A DNA stretch of 40,933 bases, taken from positions 1 to 40,933 of the IMG/VR virus record IMGVR_UViG_3300042939_000312; one strand, given 5' to 3'. Each line of letters starts with the position of its first letter. The first letter of the stretch is position 1. The position numbers and the translations under genes were made by a program. Under the pieces are notes generated by a model. The model was not told where the DNA came from. It saw only the letters and a list, made by a program, of their open reading frames with translations, and did not search any database. This document shows, in pieces, positions 12,071-24,398 of the stretch. Source of the stretch: a virus.

Positions 12071-12097
12071 AGCTTATCACGGGCCCGGGGTATACAT

Positions 12098-12170
12098 CAA
12101 GTTTTCTTGCTCAAGAATACTTGCATCTGAACGATAACTATCTTAGTCTTAGAGGCATCAAGGAAACTTG
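12098..12170. promoter_or_regulatory. Operator array: three CAAG-N4-CTTG palindromes
   Basis: CAAGTTTTCTTG lies at 12098-12109, CAAGAATACTTG at 12112-12123 and CAAGGAAACTTG at 12159-12170. The first two are centred 14 bp apart. They occupy the space between the Cro-like gene and the rightward operon. A leftward -10-like TATACC (complement of 12089-12094) and a rightward TTGCAT/TAGTCT pair (12121-12126, 12144-12149) overlap or flank them, as expected for a phage genetic switch. Confidence 0.75.
12128..12140. promoter_or_regulatory. TGAACGATAACTA site
   Basis: This 13-mer recurs as its exact reverse complement at 16218-16230 in front of the replication operon. It is a candidate binding site for a second regulator. 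Confidence 0.4.
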
Positions 12171-12177
12171 ATTAACT

Positions 12178-12186
12178 GACTAGCAA
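12178..12186 (+). promoter_or_regulatory. GACTAGCAA motif, copy 1
   Basis: First copy on the rightward map, within CTGACTAGCAA, 72 bases before the ArdC-like start codon and just after the operator array. Confidence 0.7.
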
Positions 12187-12193
12187 ATAAAAA

Positions 12194-12257
12194 GCCCTGG
12201 AAGGTACGGCAATACCAACCAAGGCACGTCTACACAAATTAACCATAAGGGGGTTAA
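12194..12257 (+). promoter_or_regulatory. Structured 5' leader of the ArdC-like gene
   Basis: A hairpin with three paired blocks spans 12194-12225: GCC, TGG and GGTA pair with TACC, CCA and GGC, separated by symmetric internal loops. A second stem, TTAACC (12239-12244) with GGTTAA (12252-12257), brackets the ribosome-binding G-run right before the ATG at 12259 and could hide it. Translational control is inferred. Confidence 0.5.
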
Positions 12258-12258
12258 C

Positions 12259-13161
12259 ATGCATAGTTCTGACGATACTAACACAAGCGCCAAGGGTGAC
12301 AAGGCAACAGTCTACGAGATAATCACCGAGCGCATAATCGAGCGAATAGAAACAGAAGGCCGGTTGCCCTGGAATAAGCCATGGATCGATGGATTCGCTC
12401 GTAACCTAGTTAGCAAAAAACACTACAGGGGGTCAAACGTTTGGTTGCTTAACATGGCACCATTCACAAGCCCCTATTGGCTAACCTTCAAGCAGGCAAA
12501 AGAGCTAGGCGGATCAGTTCGCAAGGGTCAAAAGGGCTGGCCGGTAGTTTATTGGAATTGGTTCGATACTAAGGACAAGCTAACAGGCGAAGACAAAACC
12601 ATTCCGGTTCTTAAATATTATACCGTCTTCAACCTCGAACAGTGTGACGGCATCGAAGCCCCTGCAAGCGAATCAAAGCGCATGAATAGCGACGAGAGTC
12701 TCGAAGCGTGCGAGCAGGTGGTAAAGGCTATGCCGAAGCGACCGGAGATCAGGCACGAGAGGAATGAAGCTTTCTATATGCCCCGGTTCGACTATGTGAA
12801 CATGCCCAAAAAGGAAATGTTTCACGATGCGCCTAGCTACTATCACGTTCTATTTCACGAGTTAACGCACGCGACTGGGCATGAGTCGAGGTTGGGTCGA
12901 ATAAAGGGGGATGCCGTACTAGCTAAGTTCGGATCAGAACCGTACGCAAAAGAGGAGTTGGTCGCGGAGTTGGGGGCCTCGTATCTCTCAGGCGTGGCCG
13001 GTATTCAGGCGACACAAGAAGACAACTCGATTGCCTACCTTCAAGGCTGGATCAAAGCCCTGAAGAATGATCCAAAGCTTCTGGTGCAGGCAAGCGCACA
13101 AGCGCAAAAGGCTGCTGACTTCATTCTGAATGTGAAGTTCGGCGAAAAGGGTGAGGAGTAA
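12259..13161 (+). CDS. ArdC-like antirestriction protein with zinc metallopeptidase domain
   Basis: A 300-aa protein. The N-terminal ArdC-type ssDNA-binding domain spans about residues 15-130 (LPWNKPW, RGSNVWLLN, WLTFKQAKELGGSVRKGQKGWPVVYW, LKYYTVFNLEQCDG). The C-terminal metallopeptidase domain carries HELTH (H200, E201, H204), TGHESRL and a downstream E237 in EELVAELGASYL. ArdC proteins protect incoming DNA from restriction. As the first gene of the rightward unit it would be made early, which fits. Expression is likely set by the operator array and leader hairpins upstream. Confidence 0.9.
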   Translation: MHSSDDTNTSAKGDKATVYEIITERIIERIETEGRLPWNKPWIDGFARNLVSKKHYRGSNVWLLNMAPFTSPYWLTFKQAKELGGSVRKGQKGWPVVYWNWFDTKDKLTGEDKTIPVLKYYTVFNLEQCDGIEAPASESKRMNSDESLEACEQVVKAMPKRPEIRHERNEAFYMPRFDYVNMPKKEMFHDAPSYYHVLFHELTHATGHESRLGRIKGDAVLAKFGSEPYAKEELVAELGASYLSGVAGIQATQEDNSIAYLQGWIKALKNDPKLLVQASAQAQKAADFILNVKFGEKGEE

Positions 13162-13171
13162 CATCAGGATC

Positions 13172-13189
13172 GGGGGCGATTAAGCCCCC
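13172..13189 (+). terminator. GGGGGC hairpin after the ArdC-like gene
   Basis: GGGGGC (13172-13177) pairs with GCCCCC (13184-13189) around GATTAA. Only a weak U stretch (ATATTT) follows, so it may act as a weak terminator, attenuator or mRNA stabiliser. Confidence 0.5.
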
Positions 13190-13199
13190 ATATTTCGGA

Positions 13200-13208
13200 G
13201 ACTAGCAA
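13200..13208 (+). promoter_or_regulatory. GACTAGCAA motif, copy 2
   Basis: The motif forms the spacer between GGAG and the ATG at 13211, so here it lies inside the ribosome-binding region. Confidence 0.7.
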
Positions 13209-13210
13209 CA

Positions 13211-13651
13211 ATGGAAACAGCAATAAACACAACACAAAAGATCGGCGTTCGTTCGGTGAAGGTTCATCGAGCTGAGGGGCCGTCGCATCTATGCAGGACT
13301 CACACGTTCAAAACACTAAGAGATGCCAATCTGTTTTTAATTCAAAGCGCATCAACGGTGACAGTTTATCCCGACTGCAAAGGGGGCTATGACAAGCACG
13401 ATTTTTGGATCGAGTTTGAAGACGGCGAAACCTACCAGGGCCGCATTGATCTGCATCATCCTAGCTATGCACCAACAGAGCGAATCGGGAAGCATGTAAG
13501 GGACTTTGTGCGGTTTTATGGCGGTTTGTTAGGCCCCGACGAGTTGCCCCGTCACATTAAGCCCAGAGAATACATGCATTTCGTTGCTATGTCCGGGGCC
13601 GACCCTGTTGAGTATCGCGCATGGTTGGAAAAGTACGAGCTGAGCGACTAA
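13211..13651 (+). CDS. Small accessory protein, LPD25-like
   Basis: A 146-aa soluble protein. The central FWIEFEDGETYQGRIDLHHP block is similar to the 'large polyvalent protein associated' small domains (LPD25-like) found next to antirestriction and polyvalent proteins in phages and plasmids. The C-terminus has IKPREYMHFVAMSGADPVEYRAWLEKYEL. Its position behind the ArdC-like gene supports a role in early takeover or defence evasion. The domain name is a recollection of the motif, not a search result. Confidence 0.7.
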   Translation: METAINTTQKIGVRSVKVHRAEGPSHLCRTHTFKTLRDANLFLIQSASTVTVYPDCKGGYDKHDFWIEFEDGETYQGRIDLHHPSYAPTERIGKHVRDFVRFYGGLLGPDELPRHIKPREYMHFVAMSGADPVEYRAWLEKYELSD

Positions 13652-13684
13652 CCCCAGGATCGAAAGCAACTACAACCGACGGGT

Positions 13685-13700
13685 AGCCCCTGCGGGGGCT
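13685..13700 (+). terminator. AGCCCC-TGCG-GGGGCT hairpin
   Basis: A 6-bp perfect stem with a 4-base loop between two early genes. No U-tract follows, so it is a weak or attenuator-type element. Confidence 0.45.
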
Positions 13701-13731
13701 CCCTCTCGGGTGATGTATGCCCGCACCAGGA

Positions 13732-13740
13732 GACTAGCAA
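13732..13740 (+). promoter_or_regulatory. GACTAGCAA motif, copy 3
   Basis: Same arrangement as copy 2: GGAG-ACTAGCAACAA-ATG, three bases before the start codon at 13744. Confidence 0.7.
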
Positions 13741-13743
13741 CAA

Positions 13744-14028
13744 ATGGAAAGTACACAGTTAGCGAAACAAATTATCGACTTGATCGGCGGCGATGAAATG
13801 CTGACCCGGTTACATGCAAAGCAGATTGAAACTGTACCGCTTGGGGTGCAGTTCGTGGTTCACAAAGACAACCCGGGGGACGTGACGATTAGGATCACTT
13901 TGTCGGCTGCTCGGTATGACGTTGATGTTAGTGGGTCGCTGCTACTCTTTGGAGAGCACAAGCTAACCGAGCTTCAGGACTGGCAGGTTAAGGAGTTGTT
14001 TAAAACGGTGGAGTGGTTCGCGAAGTGA
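13744..14028 (+). CDS. Hypothetical early protein, 94 aa
   Basis: A soluble alpha/beta protein with an N-terminal helix (QLAKQIIDLIGGDEMLTRLHAKQIE), a beta-rich middle (VQFVVHKDNPGDVTIRITLS, YDVDVSGSLLLFGEHK) and a C-terminal helix. No family was recognised. It lies between two stem-loops and is preceded by GGAG plus the GACTAGCAA leader, so it appears to be a discrete cassette, perhaps an accessory gene acquired as a unit. Confidence 0.7.
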   Translation: MESTQLAKQIIDLIGGDEMLTRLHAKQIETVPLGVQFVVHKDNPGDVTIRITLSAARYDVDVSGSLLLFGEHKLTELQDWQVKELFKTVEWFAK

Positions 14029-14037
14029 TCCTTGTAG

Positions 14038-14057
14038 GCCGTCTCTGGGGAGGCGGC
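14038..14057 (+). terminator. GCCGTCTC / GAGGCGGC hairpin
   Basis: An 8-bp stem with one G-U pair and a TGGG loop, just after the 94-aa gene. No U-run follows. Confidence 0.45.
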
Positions 14058-14089
14058 ACGCAAGCATCGCTGGTTTAGGGTGTGAAACT

Positions 14090-14098
14090 GACTAGAAA
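14090..14098 (+). promoter_or_regulatory. GACTAGAAA, one-base variant of the leader motif
   Basis: Within CTGACTAGAAACAAAGGTG in front of the lipoprotein gene. It differs from the consensus by one base (C to A). Confidence 0.5.
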
Positions 14099-14112
14099 CA
14101 AAGGTGAAAACC

Positions 14113-14316
14113 ATGAAAAGAGCAATCGCGGTAGCATTAGTGATGAGTGTTTTGACTGGGTGCAGTGGCTTAGAGATCGGTGGCAAGGCGTGGATCGCTA
14201 GCATTGATGAGAAGAGCGAGTCATCAAGGACGTATCGGTCAAACGTGCCCCTTAAGTGCTACTTCACTGACTGTGGTACCTCAGGATCGGAAGCGACTGA
14301 GAGCACGCCGAAATAA
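14113..14316 (+). CDS. Small lipoprotein
   Basis: A 67-aa protein starting at ATG 14113 (AAGGTGA precedes it); a GTG at 14104 is the alternative. It has a positively charged MKRA start, a hydrophobic stretch and the lipobox L14-T15-G16-C17, so it should be lipidated. The remaining ~50 residues are polar with two further cysteines. Together with the adjacent membrane protein and transglycosylase it resembles an outer-membrane spanin or envelope-modifying unit. A role in superinfection exclusion is equally possible. Confidence 0.75.
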   Translation: MKRAIAVALVMSVLTGCSGLEIGGKAWIASIDEKSESSRTYRSNVPLKCYFTDCGTSGSEATESTPK

Positions 14317-14326
14317 TTAAGCCTAA

Positions 14327-14337
14327 GACTAAGCAAC
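14327..14337 (+). promoter_or_regulatory. GACTAAGCAAC, one-base-insertion variant of the leader motif
   Basis: Lies 12 bases before the ATG at 14350 and is followed by AAAAGGAG, the ribosome site of the small membrane protein. Confidence 0.45.
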
Positions 14338-14349
14338 AAAAGGAGAGTT

Positions 14350-14523
14350 ATGTTCGAACAGATTAAAGCAAATATCTTTACGGTGCATGGGATCATTACG
14401 TCGCTTATACACCTCTTCCTGGTTGTGGGAGCGGTTACAGTTTGGATCGGCACGCAGGTGTACGTTCTAGGCAACGACCCTGTTGCACAGATGCAACAGC
14501 AAAGCGTAAAGAAGAAGCCCTAA
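14350..14523 (+). CDS. Small single-pass membrane protein, 57 aa (holin-like?)
   Basis: Starts at ATG 14350 with AGGAG 5 bases upstream and ends at TAA 14521-14523. One strong hydrophobic segment (about residues 14-40, IITSLIHLFLVVGAVTVWIG) is followed by a polar, lysine-ending tail (QQQSVKKKP). It sits between a lipoprotein gene and a transglycosylase gene three bases downstream, so it could be a holin or an inner-membrane anchor. The function is inferred from topology and neighbours only. Confidence 0.75.
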   Translation: MFEQIKANIFTVHGIITSLIHLFLVVGAVTVWIGTQVYVLGNDPVAQMQQQSVKKKP

Positions 14524-14526
14524 AGT

Positions 14527-15030
14527 ATGAGTCAGAAAACCCAGGGGGGTGGCGGCATGGCCGTTGCCCTCCTTTTTTTGGCCTACTCACTAACCCCAAC
14601 CGAGGGATCGGTAGCGAGGTATCACGTGTCGAGGATGCTAGGCGCGAAGCCTGTACCAACGAGGCGGATTATCGAGCACGAGATCAATCGGGTGGCGGAT
14701 GAGTTTGGAATCAAGCGCTCCTTGTTTCGGGCGCTCATCAGGGTGGAGAGCGGAGGGAATCCCAAAGCTTTAAGTCCGGTGGGTGCCCGGGGGATCGCTC
14801 AGGTCATGCCTTACAATCACAAGCGCTGCGGACTAGCGAGTGCAGAAACTTTGTGGGACGTGACGGCTAACCTTAGATGCGGAGCACAGATACTTAGAGA
14901 GGAGATCGATGAGCACAGAGACTTAAACAGGGCGTTGCAAGCGTACAACGGTGGGCCTAAGTGCATTAACAAGTGCAAGGAGTCTATTCAGTATGCGGCA
15001 AAGGTCCTAGCGATAACAAAAAGGGGATAG
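14527..15030 (+). CDS. Membrane-anchored lytic transglycosylase (early cassette)
   Basis: A 167-aa SLT-type peptidoglycan-cleaving enzyme. An N-terminal hydrophobic segment (MAVALLFLAYSL, about 11-22) acts as a signal or anchor. Catalytic Glu is E74 in IRVESGGNPKALSPVGARGIAQVMP, with CGAQILREE and ALQAYNGGP as the later family motifs. The frame opens at 14527, but ATG 14557 has a better G-rich ribosome site and would start right at the hydrophobic segment. It is a second transglycosylase besides the one at 23.5-24.0 kb, and lies in the early rightward region. Confidence 0.85.
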   Translation: MSQKTQGGGGMAVALLFLAYSLTPTEGSVARYHVSRMLGAKPVPTRRIIEHEINRVADEFGIKRSLFRALIRVESGGNPKALSPVGARGIAQVMPYNHKRCGLASAETLWDVTANLRCGAQILREEIDEHRDLNRALQAYNGGPKCINKCKESIQYAAKVLAITKRG

Positions 15031-15049
15031 GCTTTTTAGGGCCTACCCC
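15023..15049 (+). terminator. Hairpin overlapping the transglycosylase stop codon
   Basis: GGGG-a-TAGGC pairs with GCCTACCCC around TTTTTAGG, with one bulged A. The stop TAG lies in the stem. No U-run follows. Confidence 0.45.
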
Positions 15050-15056
15050 CACACCT

Positions 15057-15065
15057 GACTAGCAA
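15057..15065 (+). promoter_or_regulatory. GACTAGCAA motif, copy 4
   Basis: Within CCTGACTAGCAATC, 69 bases before the recombinase start. A 7-bp hairpin AGAAACC/GGTTTCT (15074-15092) follows it in the leader. Confidence 0.7.
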
Positions 15066-15134
15066 TCAAAGTGAGAAACCACGGGGGTTTCTAAGCCATA
15101 GTTTAGTATCTCCCGGCGGTAAGAGGCAAGAATT

Positions 15135-16109
15135 ATGGCTAAGATATTACATCTTAAATCCACTCCTACCCGAGTGAATGTCGCGTTAGCAATTAACCGC
15201 TGGCTTGCATTGAGGCCCGCCAATACGAGGAACCAGTACCTACGACGCGCCAAGAGTTGGAGCATGTACCTCGGGGTGAGCTTGGATGATGACCGGGCCG
15301 GTGCAAGGTGGGTGAAGGCAAAGCATCAAGACGCTCTCGATTACTGTAACGAGATAGCCGCTAAGCGGGCTCAGGATAAGCGCCACGGGACTGTATCGAG
15401 CAGTACCATACGCCAGCACTGCATGGTTTTAAAATCAATCTATGACGAGCTAATCGCTCAAGGTATAGGAGAAACCAACCCATTCGTGCGCGTGGTGAAA
15501 GAGCTAAAACAGCAGGACGCAGGAGAGCGACGCCCGCATAGGCGCATACCCACAGAGACGGTAAAGCAGTTACTAACCTGGGGGCCTCGCACGAAGGAGG
15601 AGAAGCAGGACATGGCAATCATCGCGTTGTTCTTCGGTGCTGCGCTCAGGCGGTCGGAGGTCATCAACATTAGGATCAGCGACGTTCGCACAACGGATAA
15701 AGGGACCACCGTCATTCACCTCTTACAGACCAAAGCGCAGAAGGCGCAGTCGGTGTCTCTCCCAGGGTGGGCGGCAAAGCATGTGATGACCTGGCTTGAA
15801 GTTCGCAGGAAAGAAAAGTTGGGGACGGATTATTTACTTGTGCGGTACGATAACAAAGGGAACGCTCACCAGTTAAGCGACAGTGGTATCTACCGCTGGT
15901 TCAAAAGCATTTGCGCCAGGTTTGGGGTCGGCGACTGGACTCCGCACTGCGCCAGAGTGACAGCCATCACCCAACTACTAGACCAAGGTAAAGACCATCG
16001 CGCAGTACAGGAGTTGTCCCGTCACGCAAGCGTGCAGATGGTGGAGCGCTACGATAAGAAGCGCGTTGATGCTGACGAGTCCGCAAGCAAGGACTTGGAG
16101 TACGATTAG
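15135..16109 (+). CDS. Tyrosine recombinase / integrase
   Basis: A 324-aa recombinase with a SAM-like N-terminal core-binding domain (about 15-115) and a C-terminal catalytic domain. Catalytic residues are visible: R172 in GAALRRSEV, K200 in LLQTKAQK, H271-x-x-R274 in TPHCARVTAI, H297 in LSRHAS and nucleophile Y306 in VERYDKKR. It could integrate the phage or resolve multimers. AAGAGG precedes the ATG at 15135. There is no excisionase gene nearby that I recognise, and no obvious attachment site. Confidence 0.93.
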   Translation: MAKILHLKSTPTRVNVALAINRWLALRPANTRNQYLRRAKSWSMYLGVSLDDDRAGARWVKAKHQDALDYCNEIAAKRAQDKRHGTVSSSTIRQHCMVLKSIYDELIAQGIGETNPFVRVVKELKQQDAGERRPHRRIPTETVKQLLTWGPRTKEEKQDMAIIALFFGAALRRSEVINIRISDVRTTDKGTTVIHLLQTKAQKAQSVSLPGWAAKHVMTWLEVRRKEKLGTDYLLVRYDNKGNAHQLSDSGIYRWFKSICARFGVGDWTPHCARVTAITQLLDQGKDHRAVQELSRHASVQMVERYDKKRVDADESASKDLEYD

Positions 16110-16317
16110 CTGTTAAAACGATTGTCGTTGTAAAAATAGTTGTTGCTGTACGTGTGCGAATCTGGTAGTTTCACATCGTTGTTGGCCGTTCCAATATCAA
16201 CCGGACGGAAGCTCTTTTAGTTATCGTTCATTTTCTGCACGACTTGTAAAGTTATCGGGCAAAAAGTGACTGATAATTATAAGTTCTCCCGTCCCTGACT
16301 AGCAAACGGGGGGTTAC
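16110..16317 (+). promoter_or_regulatory. Control region in front of the replication operon
   Basis: This 208-bp gap holds several copies of a TGAnCGATAA-type site: the complement of TGAACGATAACTA at 16218-16230, and an inverted pair TTATCGGGCA (16252-16261) with TGACTGATAA (16267-16276). A -10-like TATAAG overlaps the end of this palindrome (16279-16284). The stretch GATTGTCGTTGT at 16131-16142 is a weaker relative. Nothing resembling a tRNA or an attachment core was found. Confidence 0.55.
16297..16305 (+). promoter_or_regulatory. GACTAGCAA motif, copy 5, in a hairpin loop
   Basis: CCCGT (16289-16293) and ACGGG (16305-16309) flank the motif, so it is displayed in a loop. The start codon follows 12 bases later. 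Confidence 0.65.
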
Positions 16318-16647
16318 GTGGGGAGAGCAGCACAACGGGACGAGGATCTTATCTCGGTTCCATTCCTTGATGAGCCCGGTTCAGTCTACATGACTGAGAC
16401 TGAGTGGCATGTATTTAAACAAAAGCTTGGCGAGGCGTGCGCACTGTACTGGTGCGAGAAGGCTGAGGCTTATGCCGACGAGTGGCCGAGACGCTGGGCC
16501 AAGTACAAGAATCACTTTCGAACATTGACCAACTGGCACCAGATGAAGGTGGCTGACGGCTACGAGTGGTTTGAGCACCCGGCGCATGGGCCTGGGTATT
16601 ACAAGACCTGGGTTATTGACCGGGCTATGAACGGGGGCCGTCAGTGA
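16318..16647 (+). CDS. Hypothetical protein, first gene of replication operon
   Basis: A 109-aa protein with a GTG start and a G-run ribosome site 4 bases upstream. It is rich in W and Y (WHVFKQKL, ALYWCEKAEAYADEWPRRWAKYKNHF, DGYEWFEHPAHGPGYYKTWV). No known domain was recognised. Its stop overlaps the start of the RepA-like gene (GTGA), so it is probably co-translated with the replicative ATPase and may assist origin or helicase functions. Confidence 0.7.
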   Translation: MGRAAQRDEDLISVPFLDEPGSVYMTETEWHVFKQKLGEACALYWCEKAEAYADEWPRRWAKYKNHFRTLTNWHQMKVADGYEWFEHPAHGPGYYKTWVIDRAMNGGRQ

Positions 16648-17525
16648 AACCCCTTAACGCTAACGAGCTATTGGACCTGGAGACTACGGACCCCTCTCCT
16701 ATCTGGGGCCCAACCATCTGCTCGCACAATCTGGTCATGGTGTACGGCGGCACGGGTATCGGTAAGACCTACGTGTGCATGAAGCTGGCTCACACCATAT
16801 CGGCTGGGGGTGTATGGCTACAGTGGGGCTGCATCAATCCTAAGCGAGTGCTCTACATCGACGGGGAGCTGGGGCTATCAGCTATCAAGCGCAGGTTTAA
16901 GGCGATACAGGCTGAGGCTGCTTACTTTCCCCGGGGGGATTACTTCCGAGTGCTGAGTAAGGATCACTGCGGGCCTAGACTCTGGAACATCTCGGACCCG
17001 GCGGACCAGAAGAAGTACAACGAGGCCATAGGAAACTCTGAGGTAGTTGTCTTCGATAATCTCTTGAGCTGTGTGTTTCCGATGCACAGTAGGGACGATG
17101 ACGTTAAGCAGTGGGAGCGAATCCTTCCTTGGTTTCATGCGCTCAGAGACACGGGCCGCACCGTCATAGTGGTTCACCACACTGGCAAGTCGGGCGCTCA
17201 GCTAGGCACGAGCGTTAAGGAGAACTGGCTAGACACTAACATCGAGCTAAGACTTCCCCTCTCCTCCAGACCTGTTCGCGGCACTGAGTTTGAGTGGCGA
17301 TTTAAAAAGACCCGGGACGTTAAGCGCAGCGACGCGCAGAACATGCTTGTCACCTATGCCGAGGACGAGGACGGGGTATCTCGGTGGATGTGGAGCCCAT
17401 TAAACAACGCGCAGACAGATGTGGTTAGAGACTTAAAGGCTCAAGGTGCTACTCGCCGCGAGGTGGCAAAGCAAACGGGGCTTTCGTTTAAGGAAGTGAA
17501 TGATGCTTGGGAGGTAAACGTATGA
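16644..17525 (+). CDS. RepA-like hexameric helicase / RecA-fold ATPase
   Basis: A 293-aa AAA_25/RepA-type ATPase, the likely replicative helicase. Walker A is GGTGIGKT (35-42), the catalytic acidic motif IDGE is at 72-75, Walker B is EVVVFDN (133-139) and the sensor stretch VIVVHHTGKSG is at 174-184. The C-terminus adds a short helix-turn-helix, GATRREVAKQTGLSFKEVNDAW (268-289), unlike minimal plasmid RepA, which may provide DNA or origin binding. The GTG start overlaps the previous stop. No DNA polymerase or primase gene is present, so the host polymerase is presumably recruited. Confidence 0.88.
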   Translation: MKPLNANELLDLETTDPSPIWGPTICSHNLVMVYGGTGIGKTYVCMKLAHTISAGGVWLQWGCINPKRVLYIDGELGLSAIKRRFKAIQAEAAYFPRGDYFRVLSKDHCGPRLWNISDPADQKKYNEAIGNSEVVVFDNLLSCVFPMHSRDDDVKQWERILPWFHALRDTGRTVIVVHHTGKSGAQLGTSVKENWLDTNIELRLPLSSRPVRGTEFEWRFKKTRDVKRSDAQNMLVTYAEDEDGVSRWMWSPLNNAQTDVVRDLKAQGATRREVAKQTGLSFKEVNDAWEVNV

Positions 17526-17755
17526 GGGAAATGTTTGTACTTGAGTGGAGCCCTAGTCAGCAGTGTTTCCATATTCAGTTGTTGGATGAGGCGCTCGAGA
17601 GTAACCGTCGCAGGTTTTCGGCTAAGCCGCAGGACATGTTTGATTGGATACCGATGTTCATCGGGACCTATCGCGAGTGCGAGATCGTCGCAACTACCAA
17701 CCAGCACAAGCTTGATAAGAAAGAGCTAATGGAGAGCACGAGGTGGACACACTAA
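17522..17755 (+). CDS. Hypothetical protein, 77 aa
   Basis: Starts at ATG 17522 (ATGA overlap with the RepA-like stop; GGGAGG upstream). A small soluble protein with the stretch SPSQQCFHIQLLDEALESNRRRF and no recognised domain. Its tight coupling to the helicase gene suggests a helper role in replication, but this is only context. Confidence 0.75.
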   Translation: MREMFVLEWSPSQQCFHIQLLDEALESNRRRFSAKPQDMFDWIPMFIGTYRECEIVATTNQHKLDKKELMESTRWTH

Positions 17756-18156
17756 GGGCGCTGGAACATTTGAGCAACGTGCTTACCGTTGATGAGTGGC
17801 AACGGTTTAAGAGTACCGACGAGTACTTGTGGATGGTTGCGCGGACGGAGAGGTATCGGGGACCTGCGATGGAGGAGTTGGTGCGTAAGGGGACTAAGCG
17901 TAGGGAGGAAGCGTGGGCGATAGCGCTTGATATGGCGCGGTCCATTATTGAGCAGGACTTGAGAGAGGTATCGGCTGATGTTCCCGAGGAGGCTAGGCGT
18001 GCGGCTATCAAGGGCTTGGCTGAGAAGTTGTTAGTGGAGCAGGACATTGTACCCCCTACCTATACGGCGTGGTGTGACTGTGTTCAGTGTGGTCGGGTTC
18101 CTGTGCCCGAGGAGAGTGATGAGGTGATGGCTGCGTGCCCGTGGTGTAACAAATGA
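17743..18156 (+). CDS. Hypothetical protein with C-terminal zinc ribbon
   Basis: A 137-aa protein with a GTG start and GGAG 8 bases before it. The first ~95 residues are alpha-helical and charged. The C-terminus has C-D-C-V-Q-C-G and CPWC, fitting a small zinc ribbon. It overlaps its neighbours at both ends (13 and 4 bp). It may be a nucleic-acid-binding accessory factor of the RecE-like exonuclease that follows. Confidence 0.75.
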   Translation: MDTLRALEHLSNVLTVDEWQRFKSTDEYLWMVARTERYRGPAMEELVRKGTKRREEAWAIALDMARSIIEQDLREVSADVPEEARRAAIKGLAEKLLVEQDIVPPTYTAWCDCVQCGRVPVPEESDEVMAACPWCNK

Positions 18157-18980
18157 TTTACAAAGACTTAAGTTTTACTGACTACACAAAGATGCGGGGG
18201 CTCAATCAATCCAAGCTTGGGTTGTTGAAGCGTTGCCCGCAGAAGTTTAAGCACTGTCTTAGTATCGAGCGAGACGATACGGACGCGCTAAGAATTGGCA
18301 GGGCTATACACACGGCAGTGTTTCAGCCAGACCTATTTAACGGGGAGTTCCTCTGCTTACCTGACATTGATAGGCGCACCACCAAGGGGCGTGAAGAGTA
18401 TGCAACTATCGTTTGCGCTAACCCAGACAAGACTATTCTAAAGAAGGACGAGTTTAACAGGGCGCTTGAGATTGCAGCAGCGGTACGCAGTGACCGGCAC
18501 GTGTTTAAGCTTATCGACGGAGCGCAGTGTGAGCTGTCGGTGCAGTGGACACACAAAGAAACGGACGTGCTTTGTAAGGCTAGGCTTGATTGCTACAACG
18601 AGGCGCTGGGAATAGTTGTTGACCTAAAGACTACCATTGACGCAAGCCCGAACGGATTCTCTCGCAAGCTGTACGCCTATGGGTACAACCGACAAGCGGC
18701 CTGGTACCTAGATTCGCTAATAGCACACAACGAACCGGCCTATCACTTTGTCTTCATCGCCGTGGAGAAGGAGCCCCCCTATTCTCTTGGGTTGTACCGG
18801 CTATCCGACGAGGCAATCAGATTATCCAGAGCAGAGAACGAAGCGTTACTCAGGAAGTACATGGAGTGTGAGCGCATTGATGTCTGGCCTGGGTATACAG
18901 ATGGGGTTGAGGACATCTCGATTCCTAATTACGGGGTAACGGATATGGAGGAAAACTATGGAACAGAAGAATCCCTTTAG
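18153..18980 (+). CDS. RecE-like exonuclease (PDDEXK fold)
   Basis: A 275-aa nuclease of the exodeoxyribonuclease VIII type, which chews 5' ends to start single-strand annealing recombination. Motifs in order are NQSKLGLLKRCPQKFKH, GRAIH (H53), E127 in CELSVQW, KARLD (D146), DLKTT (D157, K159) and YNRQAAWYL (Q181). It is followed by an SSB-like gene. The ATGA overlap with the upstream gene indicates coupled translation. Confidence 0.87.
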   Translation: MIYKDLSFTDYTKMRGLNQSKLGLLKRCPQKFKHCLSIERDDTDALRIGRAIHTAVFQPDLFNGEFLCLPDIDRRTTKGREEYATIVCANPDKTILKKDEFNRALEIAAAVRSDRHVFKLIDGAQCELSVQWTHKETDVLCKARLDCYNEALGIVVDLKTTIDASPNGFSRKLYAYGYNRQAAWYLDSLIAHNEPAYHFVFIAVEKEPPYSLGLYRLSDEAIRLSRAENEALLRKYMECERIDVWPGYTDGVEDISIPNYGVTDMEENYGTEESL

Positions 18981-19419
18981 TAGAGCGCGTCGAGAGCGCA
19001 AGGTTATTGATGCTGGCATTTATCAAGCGTGTTTGGTTGGCGTTAAGGCCGTCCAGGTGACAGATAAAAAGACCAACGAGAAGAGAGATAAGGTTGTGCT
19101 CAGCTTTTATGTTGATGAGAAGGATGCGGAAGTGGCTGCGTTCTTTACTCCAAGCTGTGCTGATACTGCGTTCATCGTGAAGTTCTTAAAGACTGCGTGC
19201 GGTGATGCGTTCACCCCTGCGATTCAGAATGACCCTGACCTTATGTGGAAGTTTGTGAACGGGCTAGTCGGTCGAGACTTCTCGATTGTAGTTACCCAAT
19301 CAAACGGGTGGAACAACATTCAGACAGCGATGATGGCTAAGCAGCAGCCCAAGAAGGTGGAGCCTGAGTCCCTGACTGAGGATGACCTATTCGAGTTCGC
19401 TGACTCGGTGAATATATGA
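18958..19419 (+). CDS. SSB / gp2.5-like single-strand DNA-binding protein
   Basis: A 153-aa protein with a beta-rich core (GIYQACLVGVKAVQVTDKKTNEKRDKVVLSFYV, DFSIVVTQSNGWNNIQTA) and a very acidic C-terminal tail (SLTEDDLFEFADSVNI), the hallmark of SSB-type proteins that recruit partners. It begins inside the end of the exonuclease gene (23-bp overlap, GGAGG before the ATG). Its likely role is to coat ssDNA made by the helicase and exonuclease. The exact family is uncertain. Confidence 0.7.
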   Translation: MEQKNPFSRARRERKVIDAGIYQACLVGVKAVQVTDKKTNEKRDKVVLSFYVDEKDAEVAAFFTPSCADTAFIVKFLKTACGDAFTPAIQNDPDLMWKFVNGLVGRDFSIVVTQSNGWNNIQTAMMAKQQPKKVEPESLTEDDLFEFADSVNI

Positions 19420-19652
19420 AAACAAAAGAGGTTTACTACGAGCGCAAATTTAACCTCGGCAACTACGAGACTGAATCCATAGGGATACTTGTGGTCGTTG
19501 AAGAGGGAGAGAAGTTTGCTGATGTATTAAACACGGCGCGTAAGGCTGTACTGCAACAGGGGGTGATGCTTCCTAAGCCAAAGAGCGCGCCAGTAAGAGA
19601 GCTTCAAGCGGTGTTGGATAAGAAAACTAACGGTGACGTTGGGACTGTGTGA
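19416..19652 (+). CDS. Hypothetical protein, 78 aa
   Basis: A small protein, beta-rich at first (VYYERKFNLGNYETESIGILVVVEEGE) and then helical (FADVLNTARKAVLQQGV). Its start overlaps the SSB-like stop (ATGA). Its N-terminal half resembles short regulators found beside phage SSBs, but I cannot name a family. Confidence 0.7.
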   Translation: MKTKEVYYERKFNLGNYETESIGILVVVEEGEKFADVLNTARKAVLQQGVMLPKPKSAPVRELQAVLDKKTNGDVGTV

Positions 19653-19794
19653 AGAAGGTACGCCGCTAACCTTTAAGCTGTAGACGCAGCGGGCGGCACT
19701 TAATGTAGTACCCCAAGAAAGACATTAGGGAGCGGGCCGTTCCCCTCAAGGGTTGATTAGTAAACCCAAGCGGCCTTTTAACTTGGAGGGAATA
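19653..19794 (+). other. Structured intergenic region ending in a terminator-like stem
   Basis: GGTAC (19657-19661) pairs with GTACC (19708-19712), enclosing CGCCGCT (19661-19667) with AGCGGGCG (19688-19695). A second element follows: GGCCG (19735-19739) pairs with CGGCC (19771-19775), enclosing GGGTT/AACCC, and runs into TTTT, as in an intrinsic terminator. GATTAGTAA in its loop (19755-19763) resembles the early leader motif. It is the only sizeable gap in the operon. Confidence 0.55.
19735..19779 (+). terminator. Terminator between replication genes and small-gene array
   Basis: The G/C stem described in the preceding gap, with a four-U tail. It could reduce transcription into the downstream small genes. 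Confidence 0.5.
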
Positions 19795-19977
19795 ATGGAC
19801 TGGCAATCAATGATAATTTTCTCGCTCACGCTATCAATCTGTTTTCATGGTGTCGGGCACGTCGCTGGGTATGTAGCGCACAAGCTTAAAGATAAAGCTT
19901 TGGACAGGATGATTAGAGAGATAAGCAACATGGATAAGATTGTAGATGAGTACGCAAAGGTAAGGCGGGTGAAGTGA
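19795..19977 (+). CDS. Small membrane protein, 60 aa
   Basis: Starts at ATG 19795 after TTGGAGGG. A single hydrophobic segment (MIIFSLTLSICFHGVGHVAGYV, about 6-27) is followed by a charged helical cytoplasmic tail (HKLKDKALDRMIREISNMDKIVDEYAKV). No family was recognised. It could be an early membrane-targeted inhibitor or anchor. Confidence 0.7.
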   Translation: MDWQSMIIFSLTLSICFHGVGHVAGYVAHKLKDKALDRMIREISNMDKIVDEYAKVRRVK

Positions 19978-20216
19978 TGAGTGATCAGTACAGACGAATT
20001 GTATCGGCGATTGAGTACACACTGGACCAGATACGTAGCGGGCCTAAGACCAAAGAGATTGGCGAGGGTCCTACTGCGTACGAGCGTCGTGTGGAGCTTT
20101 GGTATACCTGCAAGTACAAGTTCGCTCTGTACGCGATCAAGTGTTTAAAGAGCATTGATAAAGAGAGGGCCGAGGTTTTTCTGTTAGACCTGCGGCAGTT
20201 GGGGGATGACGTATGA
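19977..20216 (+). CDS. Hypothetical protein, 79 aa
   Basis: Starts at ATG 19977 (a GTG at 19974 is the alternative) in a TGATGA overlap with the previous gene. It is helical and charged (YRRIVSAIEYTLDQIRSG, RVELWYTCKYKFALYAIKCLKSI) and probably soluble. Function unknown. Confidence 0.7.
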   Translation: MSDQYRRIVSAIEYTLDQIRSGPKTKEIGEGPTAYERRVELWYTCKYKFALYAIKCLKSIDKERAEVFLLDLRQLGDDV

Positions 20217-20287
20217 GTTTATTAATGGGGTACGTGCTGTTTCTTTCTGGCTTACTTGTTGGTGGATTCTTGGGAGGTGCGCGGTGA
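20213..20287 (+). CDS. 24-residue membrane mini-protein
   Basis: The sequence is almost entirely one hydrophobic helix (MGYVLFLSGLLVGGFLGG). Its ATG overlaps the previous stop (ATGA) and its TGA overlaps the GTG start of the next gene (GTGA), the same coupling seen across this operon, which is why I believe it is translated. A single-helix peptide such as this may regulate a host membrane protein. Confidence 0.6.
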   Translation: MSLLMGYVLFLSGLLVGGFLGGAR

Positions 20288-20535
20288 GCATACTTGTTGA
20301 GCAAATGATTAGGGTGAGCTTGCCTAAGTATACCGTCCGTGTATGGCGGCAGCAGACAGAGGAGTACGAGCACGCCACTCAAGGCATCAGCGATGTAGAG
20401 GCAGCGGCGCACAAGAATCAGGACTTACATCCGAAGGCTTTAGCGCTCTCTATCTTGTTGCTGCCTAACGTGAACGCAGTTGAGGTTCTCGATTGGGAGA
20501 AGGGTGGAATAGTTGTGTATAACGATTGGCCGTAG
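20284..20535 (+). CDS. Hypothetical protein, 83 aa
   Basis: Starts at GTG 20284 with GGGAGG upstream inside the mini-protein gene. It is a compact alpha/beta protein (VRVWRQQTEEYEHATQGISDVEAAAHKNQ, NAVEVLDWEKGGIVVYNDWP). No known domain was recognised. Confidence 0.65.
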   Translation: MSILVEQMIRVSLPKYTVRVWRQQTEEYEHATQGISDVEAAAHKNQDLHPKALALSILLLPNVNAVEVLDWEKGGIVVYNDWP

Positions 20536-20537
20536 GT

Positions 20538-20750
20538 ATGGATAAGCTAAAAGCGATTGAAGAGTTGGCAGAGAGGTGGATTAAGCAGAACAGTTTAACG
20601 GCGGGAGTTCTTGGCCCTCCTACTGGTGAGATTAAGGCGTTCATCGGTGGGTTTACCGAGGCTATGGAGCTGGCAAAAGATAGCTGGGACTCAGGCTATG
20701 AGGCTGGGAAGGCGTACGGAGAGACTATGGTGGAAGGGAAGAAGGTATGA
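20538..20750 (+). CDS. Small helical protein, module A of early array
   Basis: A 70-aa protein starting at ATG 20538. Its pattern AIEELAERWIKQNS ... FIGGFTEAMELAKDSWDSGYEAGKAYG is related to the next two genes, so these are tandem paralogues. The shared feature is an aromatic/glycine heptad-like repeat (GF or GY every 4-7 residues). It is likely a small alpha-helical bundle. Confidence 0.7.
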   Translation: MDKLKAIEELAERWIKQNSLTAGVLGPPTGEIKAFIGGFTEAMELAKDSWDSGYEAGKAYGETMVEGKKV

Positions 20751-20953
20751 GCATGACACCTGAAGAGATGGCGGAGGGGTACGCCGAAGCCTACATAGAA
20801 AGCGATAGCTATTTGTGTAGTAAGGCTTCCTTCCTCGCTGGCTACAAAGCCGGATATGGTAGAGGATTCTGCGAGGCAGGTAACGTTGAATGGAAACATG
20901 CTTTAGAGGAGGCTAAGAAGCAAAATGGAAACACTGAAAGCGATGGCAAGTAA
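20747..20953 (+). CDS. Small helical protein, module A paralogue
   Basis: A 68-aa protein. MTPEEMAEGYAEAYIESDSYL ... FLAGYKAGYGRGFCEAG repeats the GYxxGYxxGF pattern of its neighbours. It overlaps both neighbours, ATGA on the left and 29 bp on the right. Function unknown. Confidence 0.7.
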   Translation: MSMTPEEMAEGYAEAYIESDSYLCSKASFLAGYKAGYGRGFCEAGNVEWKHALEEAKKQNGNTESDGK

Positions 20954-21557
20954 CGCAGCAGCGTTGTGGATTAAGACTTCTGAAACAGAAAACAGCCTAG
21001 CCGATGCTTGCGCTATGTACGGCTACGATTGTGGCTTTCAGGCTGGCTACAAAGCAGCACAGGAACAGTTTGCTGATGTCAGCAAGGTGATGCCGGACCA
21101 TAATGCCGACGCCAGCAAAAAGGTCGATGAGGTTAGCGCCCTGCTGGATGAGAATGAGTTGGTGGATATGAAGCTAAAAAGGCAGTACGGCAAAGCATAT
21201 CTCGATCTTGTTCTCTCTACGCCTGGCTGCAATCCCCTTACTAGCTTCGGTGTGCCTCCACGTAAGCATGATGTGAGTATCATTGGCGAATATGTTGAGC
21301 ACCTAGAGGATGTAATTGCAGCGCGCAGTAGTTCAGGAATCCTTAACAACTGGATTAGCGTGAAGGACAGGTTGCCACCTAAAGGCGAATGGGTGCTGTC
21401 CTGGTATCTCTGGGGGCATGAGGTCAACAAGTTAAAATGGATCAGCCCAAATGGTCAGCTAGATTTTCACCGTGACTACTATGGTGAGAGCGAGAGTGAG
21501 GATGGTGGACCCACTCACTGGATGCCGCTACCTGAGCCGCCGAAGGAGGATAAGTGA
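20925..21557 (+). CDS. Module A fused to a DUF551-like domain
   Basis: A 210-aa protein. The N-terminal ~50 residues (LKAMASNAAALWIKTSETENS ... YGYDCGFQAGYKAAQEQF) are a module A copy. A helical linker follows, and the C-terminal ~65 residues (NWISVKDRLPPKGEWVLSWY ... HWMPLPEPPKEDK) are DUF551-like, a domain common in small phage genes. The DNA for the closing PPKE stretch supplies the AAGGAGG ribosome site of the next gene. Confidence 0.8.
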   Translation: METLKAMASNAAALWIKTSETENSLADACAMYGYDCGFQAGYKAAQEQFADVSKVMPDHNADASKKVDEVSALLDENELVDMKLKRQYGKAYLDLVLSTPGCNPLTSFGVPPRKHDVSIIGEYVEHLEDVIAARSSSGILNNWISVKDRLPPKGEWVLSWYLWGHEVNKLKWISPNGQLDFHRDYYGESESEDGGPTHWMPLPEPPKEDK

Positions 21558-21766
21558 CCGAAGAGCACGACTGGATTAGCACTAAGCAAGGGTACCCGAT
21601 TGAGGATGCGTGGATTCTAGTTTGGATTCCTGTATTCGAGCAGTTCAGGGCTGGTAGACGGAGGAAGGATTCGGAGGGGACCTGGTTTGAGTTTGATTAT
21701 TTCTCAATAGGCATCGACCACGTTAGTCACTGGAAATACATAACGCCGCCGAAGGAGGAATCATGA
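21554..21766 (+). CDS. DUF551-like small protein
   Basis: A 70-aa protein with a GTG start overlapping the previous stop. HDWISTKQGYPIEDAWILVWIP ... VSHWKYITPPKEES has the DUF551 pattern, so it duplicates the C-terminal domain of its neighbour. Its closing PPKE codons again encode AAGGAGG for the following gene. Role unknown. Confidence 0.75.
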   Translation: MTEEHDWISTKQGYPIEDAWILVWIPVFEQFRAGRRRKDSEGTWFEFDYFSIGIDHVSHWKYITPPKEES

Positions 21767-22011
21767 GCCGCGAATGGCACGAGCATAAGTATTGCAGCGC
21801 AGAGAATTTGTGGTGCTGGATTGATGAAGAGATAAGCAAGATTGACCAGACGCTAGAGAGCTATAAGGACCAGTGTGGCGAGAGTTATAAGCTAGCGCTT
21901 ATGAGTCGGCGCGAGATGATAGACAAGCTAGCTGATTGGTTGCATGAGGAGAGCGCTGCGCTCGGAGAGATTGCTCAGTTGTGGGGGTTGGGGGTGAAGG
22001 AGGAAGGATGA
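21763..22011 (+). CDS. Hypothetical protein, 82 aa
   Basis: A mainly alpha-helical, charged protein with a W/H-rich N-terminus (REWHEHKYCSAENLWCWIDEEI) and a leucine-rich C-terminus. It overlaps its neighbours by ATGA on both sides, with AAGGAGG ahead of the start. No known domain was recognised. Confidence 0.75.
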   Translation: MSREWHEHKYCSAENLWCWIDEEISKIDQTLESYKDQCGESYKLALMSRREMIDKLADWLHEESAALGEIAQLWGLGVKEEG

Positions 22012-22253
22012 GTATGGTTAAGTTTTTCAAAGACGGCGATCGCATGGGCGTTGCGACTACATGTAAAAATGAGCACGTTTTCCTGGAGCGGGTTTCGGTT
22101 GCTCTTTCAGACATGATTGACCAGGGGCATCATGAGGGCGACTGGTACTTTCAGCTAGACAGATGGCTCCCCTGTGTCGTTGATATTTGTTATCAGATGC
22201 GGGACTGCGATTATGGGAAGCAGATGTATCAGGCTGGCGATGTGCCCCACTAG
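22008..22253 (+). CDS. Hypothetical protein, 81 aa
   Basis: Starts at ATG 22008 (GGAAGG just upstream, ATGA overlap). A mixed alpha/beta protein with several cysteines and tryptophans (ATTCKNEHVFLERV, DWYFQLDRWLPCVVDICYQMRDCDYG). No family was recognised. Confidence 0.7.
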   Translation: MSMVKFFKDGDRMGVATTCKNEHVFLERVSVALSDMIDQGHHEGDWYFQLDRWLPCVVDICYQMRDCDYGKQMYQAGDVPH

Positions 22254-22281
22254 ACCTAGCCATAACCGAGCGGAAGAACTA

Positions 22282-22653
22282 ATGGTCAACAGTAGAGCCA
22301 AAGGCGCAGCCGGTGAACGCGAACTAGCCAACAGGCTAAAGGAGCTTGGCCTAACCGCAAGGCGTGGTCAGCAATTCTGTGGGGCTAACGGCGATAGCGA
22401 TGTAGTGTGCGAGGAGTTGGCTGCTTACCACCTGGAGGTGAAGCGGGTACAGGCTCTAAACATTCACGACGCTATGAGTCAGGCAGTAAGGGATGGCAAG
22501 GACAAGACTCCGGTAGTTGTTCATAGAAAGAACAATAAGCCCTGGCTTGCCACCCTCTTTTTGGAGGACTTTATTAAGCTAGCTACTTCTTCAGCTTCGC
22601 AACCGCAGCATGACCAACCCCGGCCACGCCAAGCACTGCCGCAACCTGAATAA
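22282..22653 (+). CDS. PDDEXK nuclease, Holliday-junction-resolvase-like
   Basis: A 123-aa protein from ATG 22282 (GGAAG upstream). The start SRAKGAAGERELANRLKELG, a G-D-S-D motif in GANGDSDVVCEEL, and HLEVKRVQ as the E-x-K motif match Hjc-like PDDEXK endonucleases. The last 23 codons lie antisense to the C-terminus of the small minus-strand gene at 22583-22756, so rightward and leftward blocks end in a 71-bp overlap. It probably resolves branched replication intermediates before packaging. Confidence 0.82.
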   Translation: MVNSRAKGAAGERELANRLKELGLTARRGQQFCGANGDSDVVCEELAAYHLEVKRVQALNIHDAMSQAVRDGKDKTPVVVHRKNNKPWLATLFLEDFIKLATSSASQPQHDQPRPRQALPQPE

Positions 22654-22756
22654 GTATCTCCTTAAACGGTGCCACCACTGGAATGAAGTCAGCAACACAC
22701 GCGAGTATTGCAAACACTGATGCTACGGTCCTCTTGGTTCCCTTGCTCTCGAACAT
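22583..22756 (-). CDS. Holin-like small membrane protein, 57 aa
   Basis: Read on the minus strand from ATG 22756 (AGAGGAG 7 bases upstream) to TAG 22585-22583. It has a short charged N-terminus (MFESKGTKRTV), two hydrophobic stretches (VASVFAILACVADFIPVVAP, ILIQVAAVLGVAGVGHAAV) and a basic end (AKLKK), matching a small two-helix holin. It lies last in the lysis cassette. The strong ribosome site and sequence character make it real despite its size. Confidence 0.75.
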   Translation of the reverse strand: MFESKGTKRTVASVFAILACVADFIPVVAPFKEILIQVAAVLGVAGVGHAAVAKLKK

Positions 22757-22766
22757 ATTATCTCCT

Positions 22767-23591
22767 CTACTTAAACTCTCTGCGTAGCCACCCCGTCAGC
22801 GCCTCTATATCGGCCCCAGTTTGAACGCAGTCGCGCTTTCGTGGGTCGATGAATGTCTGACCATGGTGGCCGTTACAATTAAGCCCTACGCTCCACACAA
22901 AGCTCATATCGCAAGCCTTGGTATTACGTAGAAACTTAGGCACAGAGATTTCGTTAGCGTCGATTCCATCAAGGTCAGCTATACACGGGGAAGTAAGACC
23001 TGGATTTGGTCCGTGTCTCTCACAGACGACTCCCCGTATGCAGTTACCGCGAAGAGGATTATCAACGAGAGTACAGCTAGGGAGATAAGAAGCTGTGAGG
23101 CTATGAAGGATCTTTCTTGTGCGTCCATCAAAGTCTGATTCTAGGACAGGGCTAACGTAGCAAGTAAGCGCACCCCTACTCTTGGCTAACCGACTCCGTA
23201 ACCTATCTAGAATCCTCACGTATTTACGTATAATAGCTGGCTTAGTTGCTTTTATGGCCCTCTGCGCCGAACCTATAGTCTCCCCAGCGAACACCTCATA
23301 GCGACCACACCGCTTGTTCCTAAGACATGGGCCATTAGCTATATGCACCCTCACCTCTTTGGGCCTCTCATCCTGCAAGAGCTTATCCACGCACGGGCAC
23401 TGCTCCCCAAACGTCTGCTCCAACCAGCCAAAGCGAATAACAGGCAGCCCGTCAAAGGCTTGTATGGACTTCTCGCACGGCCACTTAGGGTGACACATCC
23501 CAAGGTATGACAAGGCTACGTTCTGAGCCCTAGCCGACGAGCAGGTAATGGTAAGCGCCAGACTCAATATGACGAAGTATCTTTTTGGCAT
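22767..23591 (-). CDS. Secreted cysteine-rich protein in the lysis cassette
   Basis: A 274-aa protein starting at ATG 23591 after GGAGGGG, inside the end of the transglycosylase gene (62-bp overlap). The signal peptide is MPKRYFVILSLALTITCSSARA. The mature part has about 15 cysteines and an alternating strand/helix pattern (IRFGWLEQTF, VRVHIANGPC, LTCYVSPVLESDFDG, CIADLDGID, FVWSVGLNCNG), compatible with a barrel-type hydrolase. I cannot name the family. A role in envelope breakdown is inferred from position. Confidence 0.75.
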   Translation of the reverse strand: MPKRYFVILSLALTITCSSARAQNVALSYLGMCHPKWPCEKSIQAFDGLPVIRFGWLEQTFGEQCPCVDKLLQDERPKEVRVHIANGPCLRNKRCGRYEVFAGETIGSAQRAIKATKPAIIRKYVRILDRLRSRLAKSRGALTCYVSPVLESDFDGRTRKILHSLTASYLPSCTLVDNPLRGNCIRGVVCERHGPNPGLTSPCIADLDGIDANEISVPKFLRNTKACDMSFVWSVGLNCNGHHGQTFIDPRKRDCVQTGADIEALTGWLRREFK

Positions 23592-24003
23592 AGTCAGGGT
23601 CCCCTCCACCGTTCCACCTTAGTAGCGCTTTCTCTGTGGTGTCGTGCTTGTGAAGAAGTGTTTGTAGAAACTCGCTGCCCCATTTGAGGTTTACCGCCGG
23701 GTCGCATAGCTCAGTAAGGAACTCACCCTGGAAGCCTCGCTCTCGAGCCACCTGCCCCATAATCTGCATAAGGCCAAAGGAGGTAGCCCTCATCTGAACC
23801 TCGGTCTGCCAGCTACACTGGCTGGGAACATGCCCGCCTATGGTCTTCTTGGTCTTACTCTCCAGGTAGCGCTTTAAGAAAGCTGGTTCGTATCTGACTG
23901 CGTACGGGTTGCCACTCGATTCCTGGTGGATGAGTGCCGCTAAGAGCTGCGGGTTTATTCCGGTCTGTAAGGCGGTATTGGTAATTATCTGAGCTAGCTT
24001 CAT
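23530..24003 (-). CDS. Lytic transglycosylase, SLT type (endolysin)
   Basis: A 157-aa soluble enzyme without a signal peptide. Catalytic Glu is E28 in LIHQESSGNPYAVRYEP, followed by the family blocks ATSFGLMQIMGQVARERGF, DPAVNLKWGSEFL and ALLRWNGGGDPDYA. It would cleave peptidoglycan at the end of infection. It overlaps the upstream membrane-protein gene by 4 bp and the downstream secreted protein gene by 62 bp, which marks a compact lysis cassette. Confidence 0.9.
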   Translation of the reverse strand: MKLAQIITNTALQTGINPQLLAALIHQESSGNPYAVRYEPAFLKRYLESKTKKTIGGHVPSQCSWQTEVQMRATSFGLMQIMGQVARERGFQGEFLTELCDPAVNLKWGSEFLQTLLHKHDTTEKALLRWNGGGDPDYAKKILRHIESGAYHYLLVG

Positions 24004-24299
24004 GGCGTATTGAAGATGTGAGGGAGGGCAGCTTTGAGGCCAGTGAACCAGAGTATGACGACGATCAGGGAGTAACAGAGAACCTTAATGACGGGGTGGA
24101 TTATGGCTTTTTGCTGCTCTGTTATTTTCTCGACTACGCTTATTGGGATATATCCCTGTTCTCGTAAGGCTTTTAGCTCGCCTGTCACCCCGTCAAAACC
24201 GCTTCTTAAAACCGACTCCAGCGACTCAAACCGCTCTTCTTGTCTGTTGCTAAATACGTGAAAGTCTAAGTGACCGTTGCCGTTTACCTTGTGGTCCAT
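24000..24299 (-). CDS. Membrane protein with one C-terminal segment, holin or lysis accessory
   Basis: A 99-aa protein with a polar, coiled N-terminal two thirds (RQEERFESLESVLRSGFDGVTGELKALREQG) and one transmembrane helix near the C-terminus (VIKVLCYSLIVVILWFTGLKAAL). Being directly upstream of the endolysin suggests a holin, spanin or regulator of lysis. The one-segment topology is less typical for a holin than the 57-aa protein downstream. Confidence 0.7.
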   Translation of the reverse strand: MDHKVNGNGHLDFHVFSNRQEERFESLESVLRSGFDGVTGELKALREQGYIPISVVEKITEQQKAIIHPVIKVLCYSLIVVILWFTGLKAALPHIFNTP

Positions 24300-24378
24300 C
24301 TACATCTGAGCCTGTCTAAATCTGGTAGTCTCTTACTCATTTTTGCTGGATTTAGAGGGGCATGTAAGTTACCCTGGG

Positions 24379-24398
24379 TATAGGACTAGCAACCTATA
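24379..24398 (+). promoter_or_regulatory. GACTAGCAA motif, copy 6, in a perfect hairpin
   Basis: TATAGG (24379-24384) pairs with CCTATA (24393-24398) and displays ACTAGCAA as the loop. It is the only copy outside the rightward early block and precedes an isolated plus-strand gene. Confidence 0.7.

Follow-up and report, generated by a model that had tools for sequence, protein, structure and literature searches.

The 9-mer GACTAGCAA, which occurs six times in the window (the whole stretch of DNA that was analysed, 40,933 nt, from a virus record of an uncultured phage), looks like a conserved leader element of a temperate-looking phage clade, acting at the RNA level. Its best explanation, to which a probability of roughly 0.45 is assigned, appears to be an element that is read on the RNA and tunes translation of the next gene; translation control seems the most likely mode of action, followed by antitermination or RNA processing.

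All six exact copies listed in the earlier note were recovered (Table 1). They are situated on the plus strand and between genes, at 72, 2, 3, 69, 12 and 14 nt (in copy order) from start codons chosen with a simple score for the codon itself and its ribosome-binding site; the minus strand holds none, and the reversed pattern of the motif, taken as a control, has no match in the window. According to dinucleotide shuffles of the window, 0.2 copies per strand are expected. The sixfold count by itself is only suggestive, since with every 9-mer as a candidate the best one attains six copies in 5 of 200 shuffles; CACCGTCAT likewise occurs six times in the window. What sets the motif apart is not its count but its placement, which is decisive: all six copies fall within the non-coding 5.7% of the window (about 3e-8 if they are independent). 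The observation as such is real. One-mismatch matches over the whole window show no excess (15 vs. 11.2 expected); concerning the two near variants proposed earlier, the one at 14090 is borne out by its counterpart in the relative G008, whereas the one at 14327 is not supported because it carries an inserted base and is missing from the G008 counterpart. The most frequent 9-mer of the window over both strands is TTATCAAGC/GCTTGATAA, found at 8 places scattered through genes (e.g., 2333, 5097, 6191, 8529, 17710, 19020, 25347, 36872).

Table 1. Positions of the motif, of flanking hairpins and of the second structured leader (window coordinates unless a locus of a relative is named).
Feature	Position	Strand	Context
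GACTAGCAA copy 1	12178..12186	+	First leader, ArdC-like gene at 12259
GACTAGCAA copy 2	13200..13208	+	GGAG-motif-CA-ATG, gene at 13211
GACTAGCAA copy 3	13732..13740	+	GGAG-motif-CAA-ATG, gene at 13744
Variant GACTAGAAA	14090..14098	+	Identical variant at the equivalent place in G008
GACTAGCAA copy 4	15057..15065	+	Integrase leader, gene at 15135; motif kept in seven integrase leaders
GACTAGCAA copy 5	16297..16305	+	Leader of first replication-module gene (16318)
GACTAGCAA copy 6	24384..24392	+	Leader of isolated plus-strand gene at 24407; G016 has orthologue and motif
Inverted repeat ATCAAG-GAAA-CTTGAT	12157..12172	+	5 nt upstream of copy 1; may be DNA operator, RNA hairpin or both
Hairpin GGGGGC-GATTAA-GCCCCC	13172..13189	+	10 nt upstream of copy 2
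Two hairpins (type 2 gap)	13685..13723	+	Upstream of copy 3; retained in relatives, weak covariation
Hairpin	15023..15050	+	Upstream of copy 4
Hairpin GAAACC...GGTTTC	15074..15092	+	Downstream of copy 4; GACACC...GGTGTC in relatives, read by eye
Hairpin CCCGU...ACGGG	16288..16310	+	Loop holds motif; kept in G008
Hairpin TATAGG-ACTAGCAA-CCTATA	24379..24398	+	Loop holds motif
Second leader	12185-12262		Window
Second leader	2432-2508		L031
Second leader	2095-2172		L035
Second leader	8202-8279		L036
Second leader	8081-8158		L060
Second leader	4254-4331		L061
Second leader	11637-11714		L076

Relatives were collected by terminase searches (66-88% terminase identity), one more being found via an intergenic pattern; all are metagenomic and some are fragments, and the eight phages total about 220 kb. 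Absence of the motif from close relatives, which the earlier note had named as evidence against its proposal, was looked for and the opposite was found: the motif recurs in all seven relatives in which the early region is present (G003, G006, G008, G009, G011, G012, G016), at a similar kind of site as in the window. Among the eight phages, 32 intergenic copies lie on the early-gene strand vs. a single one on the opposite strand (in a coding region of G003). Even with the window excluded, GACTAGCAA is the commonest non-homopolymer 9-mer (26 copies in seven phages, one opposite), and one-mismatch variants in the early regions are distributed 11 to 1 in favour of the gene strand, with 10 of the 11 differing in the last three bases only. 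In the fragments G002 and G004, the 9-mer is confined to a coding stretch common to both.

Distant phages related solely via the primase-like or the integrase protein (13 records, 22-32% identity) are without the motif, apart from a single copy taken as chance. Three matches to the pattern GGAGACTAGCAACNATG in a scan of viral contigs, none of them otherwise like the clade and one, examined in detail, inside a gene, were also treated as chance. A DNA comparison of positions 1-25000 of the window with the 50,697 phage records of an isolate collection found nothing, and the best terminase matches in this collection reach about 23-28% identity; among genome contigs, neither a relative by terminase search nor a match to the type 2 hairpin pattern (see below) was found.

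By BLASTP, the genes behind the 32 copies fall into 16 unrelated families, ten of which are singletons. The others include the integrase (seven phages), the first gene of the replication module (five), a small family (four), and, with two phages each, the ArdC-like gene and a short protein whose N terminus is signal-like, the latter encoded by the isolated gene at 24.4 kb and by its orthologue in G016. The orientation of the motif is always that of the downstream gene, including the isolated gene in both the window and G016. Distances to the start range from 0 to 78 nt and are grouped at 0-3, 11-16, 25-34 and 63-78 nt, the last group consisting of the integrases and window copy 12178; 8 of the 32 copies are situated 0-3 nt from the start codon, and 24 lie within 34 nt of it.

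Recurring units make up the gaps of the early operon: a stop codon, often followed by CAGGATCGGAAGC-RACT, then one or two hairpins, ACY or GGA, the motif, a ribosome-binding site and the start codon. Sequences like CAGGATCGGAAGC right after early-gene stop codons are found in the window at 13165, 13655 and 14282, and in many gaps of the relatives; over the eight phages, CAGGATCGG has 13 gene-strand copies vs. 3 opposite. Two classes of gaps were aligned and counted. In type 4 gaps (CCUACAG-hairpin-CGAUAGG-hairpin-ACY-GACTAGCAA), 95.5% of the cells are paired, compared with 39-50% in slid controls, and two-sided changes occur in 11 of 19 pairs vs. 3.6 in shuffles, related copies being treated as independent; RNAalifold adds an invariant outer helix CCUA/UAGG. 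Type 2 gaps (CGGGTgatgtttGCCCG before GGAGACTAGCAA) are 94.9% paired, and support from covariation is weak because two-sided changes are few; the type 2 gaps of G008 and G016 have the same hairpins without the motif. Integrase leaders possess one hairpin upstream and one downstream of the motif, as read by eye and not counted. Altogether, 56% of the copies have a stem of 5 bp or more that ends at most 10 nt upstream of them, compared with 15% of random positions and 21% in shuffles, a figure that includes the copies next to first-leader palindromes and counts kin copies as independent. Stem sequences vary from copy to copy.

The motif itself is mostly unpaired. The display in a hairpin loop described earlier at 16297 and 24384 was found again in relatives: at the former site, in front of the first replication gene, the hairpin is retained in G008 with one A-U replaced by G-U, and at the latter TAGG-loop-CCTA surrounds the variants GACTAGCGA and GACTAGCAG in G003 and G006. 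In the first replication gene leader of G006, G012, G016 and G003 (the last with GACTAGCAC), GCTAG lies upstream, which may be able to pair with the motif and would then set AAGGA in a loop. The placement of the motif between GGAG and ATG at 13200 and 13732 was likewise verified, and the arrangement of the 13732 type also precedes related genes of G003, G006 and G011.

Recurrence in relatives, orientation, position and the adjacent covarying hairpins support a leader signal at the RNA level. Action on RNA is further suggested by the presumed location in transcribed leaders, by the lack of promoter enrichment and by the position downstream of operator-like repeats (both treated below), and control of translation is favoured because 24 of the 32 copies lie near start codons and because of the arrangements around the ribosome-binding site. 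The observed basis consists of recurrence, strand, position, independence of gene family and covarying hairpins beside one class of copies; from these we infer recognition of the 9-mer in trans, tuning of translation and a role of the hairpin. The copies would be located in the transcribed leader or gap of the early/lysogeny region or of an isolated gene, often a few bases 3' of a hairpin of variable sequence. There, the 9-mer would be read on the mRNA by a putative trans-acting factor, be it the ribosome or a protein of phage or host origin, which would tune translation initiation of the downstream gene, while the hairpin would hold the stretch open and insulate the gene from the one preceding it. 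In certain leaders, the loop with the motif would belong to a hairpin that contains the ribosome-binding site; in others its pairing with GCTAG would leave the ribosome-binding site in a loop, such that binding at the motif could switch the exposure of this site. Against translation control stand the 63-78 nt between motif and start in the integrase leaders and at copy 12178, which is far for an initiation signal, the leaders with the same hairpins but without the motif, and the possibility that the first-leader palindromes are DNA operators.

More tentatively, the unit of hairpin plus GACUAGCAA might represent a new class of phage RNA leader, a module that stands at many boundaries between early genes and is recognised by a trans-acting factor. 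If so, one factor would simultaneously control a changing set of early genes via these units, and a temperate phage could bring new early genes under common control by means of the shared leader.

Given the constant spacing of 63-78 nt in the integrase leaders and the two hairpins of each type 4 unit, antitermination or processing is conceivable as well. As an antitermination or elongation site, the hairpins and the 9-mer in the nascent RNA would load onto RNA polymerase, which would then transcribe the early operon processively, much as with put of phage HK022 or with nut sites. The put RNA consists of two adjacent hairpins in an early phage transcript, near early promoters, and the type 4 unit, in which two adjacent covarying hairpins are followed by a fixed sequence, resembles it in layout; moreover, the first leaders have the motif close to the presumed start of the transcript. 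However, the motif is found in most intergenic gaps of the operon and not just once near the promoter, a repetition that is not known for put, and it also precedes an isolated single gene; number and shape of the hairpins vary among copies, and Rfam 15 yields no match at gathering score over the whole window (a lax search of 12080-16400 yields one chance-level match, within the integrase gene). This explanation is rather unlikely.

Less probable still is a site of RNA processing or stability, at which a putative endonuclease would cut at or near the exposed 9-mer, while the preceding transcript would have its 3' end shielded by the hairpin. In line with it, hairpins lacking a T-run tail are situated between the gene end and the motif, which is mostly unpaired, but the first leaders have no upstream gene to be separated, and the motif can pair in some leaders.

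A boundary for recombination, i.e., a short shared intergenic sequence for the exchange of early genes between phages without any role in expression, is improbable. Gene content between the motif copies is variable, and homology between the window and G008 restarts at the 3' end of the motif (12185); however, nine bases are short for homologous recombination, and the 9-mer is kept in orthologous leaders although the flanks diverge, and therefore selection on the sequence itself would be needed. Gene shuffling may be a consequence of the motif and not its function. In T4-type phages, mobile cassettes of promoter and stem-loop recur between shuffled early genes; the recurring intergenic stem-loop unit is similar, whereas no promoter was detected here.

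The earlier note had left open whether the motif is a promoter, a translation signal or an RNA-processing signal. A signal acting in the transcribed leader is supported, whereas the promoter was discarded because copies lie 0-78 nt from the starts, because sigma-70-like sites are not enriched upstream of the motif (best-site mean 6.9 vs. 6.6 in the background, none scoring 9 of 12 or better) and because operator-like repeats precede the motif in the first leader. A sigma-70 promoter, with suitably spaced -35/-10 hexamers at or near the motif, is not supported, and a promoter on either strand was rejected for want of enrichment. That the 9-mer is recognised as double-stranded DNA, as promoter or operator, is very improbable: operator-like repeats just upstream in first leaders (e.g., TGAACGATAA at 12128) and a reverse-strand match TTGCTA..TATAAT at 16305-16276 speak in favour of it, but this match is not general among the copies (9% vs. 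3%), the copies adjoin start codons, and the strand of the motif is that of the gene. The first-leader palindromes, in turn, may be repressor operators, because a TCAAAT..TTTG palindrome is common to G003 and G009, the repressors of which are 87.5% identical, whereas other phages differ; it is doubtful that they belong to the same RNA unit. Operator-like repeats TGANYGATAA together with an inverted repeat TTATCGGTCAAttaTTGACTGATAA are found in regulatory gaps (window 11333, 12128, 16221 and 16267; L036 near 4800) and adjoin a repressor-like gene at 11840-12070.

A target for a small RNA pairing with the 9-mer is hardly credible: a fixed single-stranded stretch of 9 nt by ribosome-binding sites is typical of a seed target, but the lone gene-strand TTGCTAGTC in the eight phages is one G003 copy in a coding region. 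A phage-encoded antisense RNA was rejected, as no suitable complement TTGCTAGTC exists across the eight phages; pairing with a host RNA is possible.

The closest precedent for the motif is the Start-Associated Sequence (SAS) of cluster K mycobacteriophages, a sequence of 13 bp (GGGATAGGAGCCC) that contains AGGAG and is typically situated 3-7 bp from the start, a part of which is extended (ESAS) by 17-bp inverted repeats with a common consensus, unsupported RNA pairing and a putative promoter inside (PMC3203893, PMC11373665). Both are short, fixed and asymmetric sequences with many copies per genome in a single orientation (32 copies before 16 families in the present clade, agreeing with the general definition of SAS), just upstream of gene starts and confined to non-structural genes from unrelated families with large upstream gaps, and in both a subset has inverted repeats upstream. 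Despite this similarity, GACTAGCAA is comparable to SAS but not a member: it has 9 bp and does not match the consensus GGGATAGGAGCCC, the near-fixed Shine-Dalgarno core is usually missing, the distance ranges from 0 to 78 nt, and a separate ribosome-binding site often follows; unlike the shared repeat of ESAS with its promoter, the stems differ in sequence, pairing is kept in type 4, and there is no promoter enrichment. A SAS-like motif (GGGAAAGGACCCC) is also described, in about ten copies at the position of the ribosome-binding site, for Microbacterium cluster EF phages (PMC7302621); it is likewise conserved ahead of start codons and accompanied by a less strongly conserved stretch in the gap, but unrelated in sequence. 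No paper mentioning GACTAGCAA as text was found in the literature searched. Start-associated repeats in actinobacteriophages have been known since 2011, without a known function; GACTAGCAA constitutes an independent case, found in uncultured phages to which the isolate collection searched contains no close relative, and its covarying hairpins, missing Shine-Dalgarno core and lack of a promoter signal speak for the RNA level.

Seven phages share a further structured leader that is separate from the motif (Table 1). One of its hairpins has the loop CNGNAA, ACGTC is conserved, and the ribosome-binding site is covered by a second hairpin; 92.4% of the cells are paired, and 10 of 15 pairs are changed on both sides vs. 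5.0 in shuffles, with kin copies taken as independent. It directly adjoins the first GACTAGCAA in the window, whereas G008 has an additional gene between the two (window 12178-12262 vs. L036 8188-8853). The genes behind it are ArdC-like, DnaJ-like, RadC, one weakly DUF5710-like and two without match. In a search with the model R1, the seven loci used for its training scored E 1e-14 or better, which is to be expected by construction, and no convincing match beyond them was obtained; the element is not in Rfam. Judging from its sequence, it looks like a cis-regulatory, riboswitch-like RNA.

Concerning the window as a whole, its ends (1-600 and 40334-40933) match over 600 bases with 88.7% identity, which would reflect either a terminal repeat whose copies have diverged or the joining of two strain variants during assembly; a whole genome of about 40.3 kb may be covered by the record.
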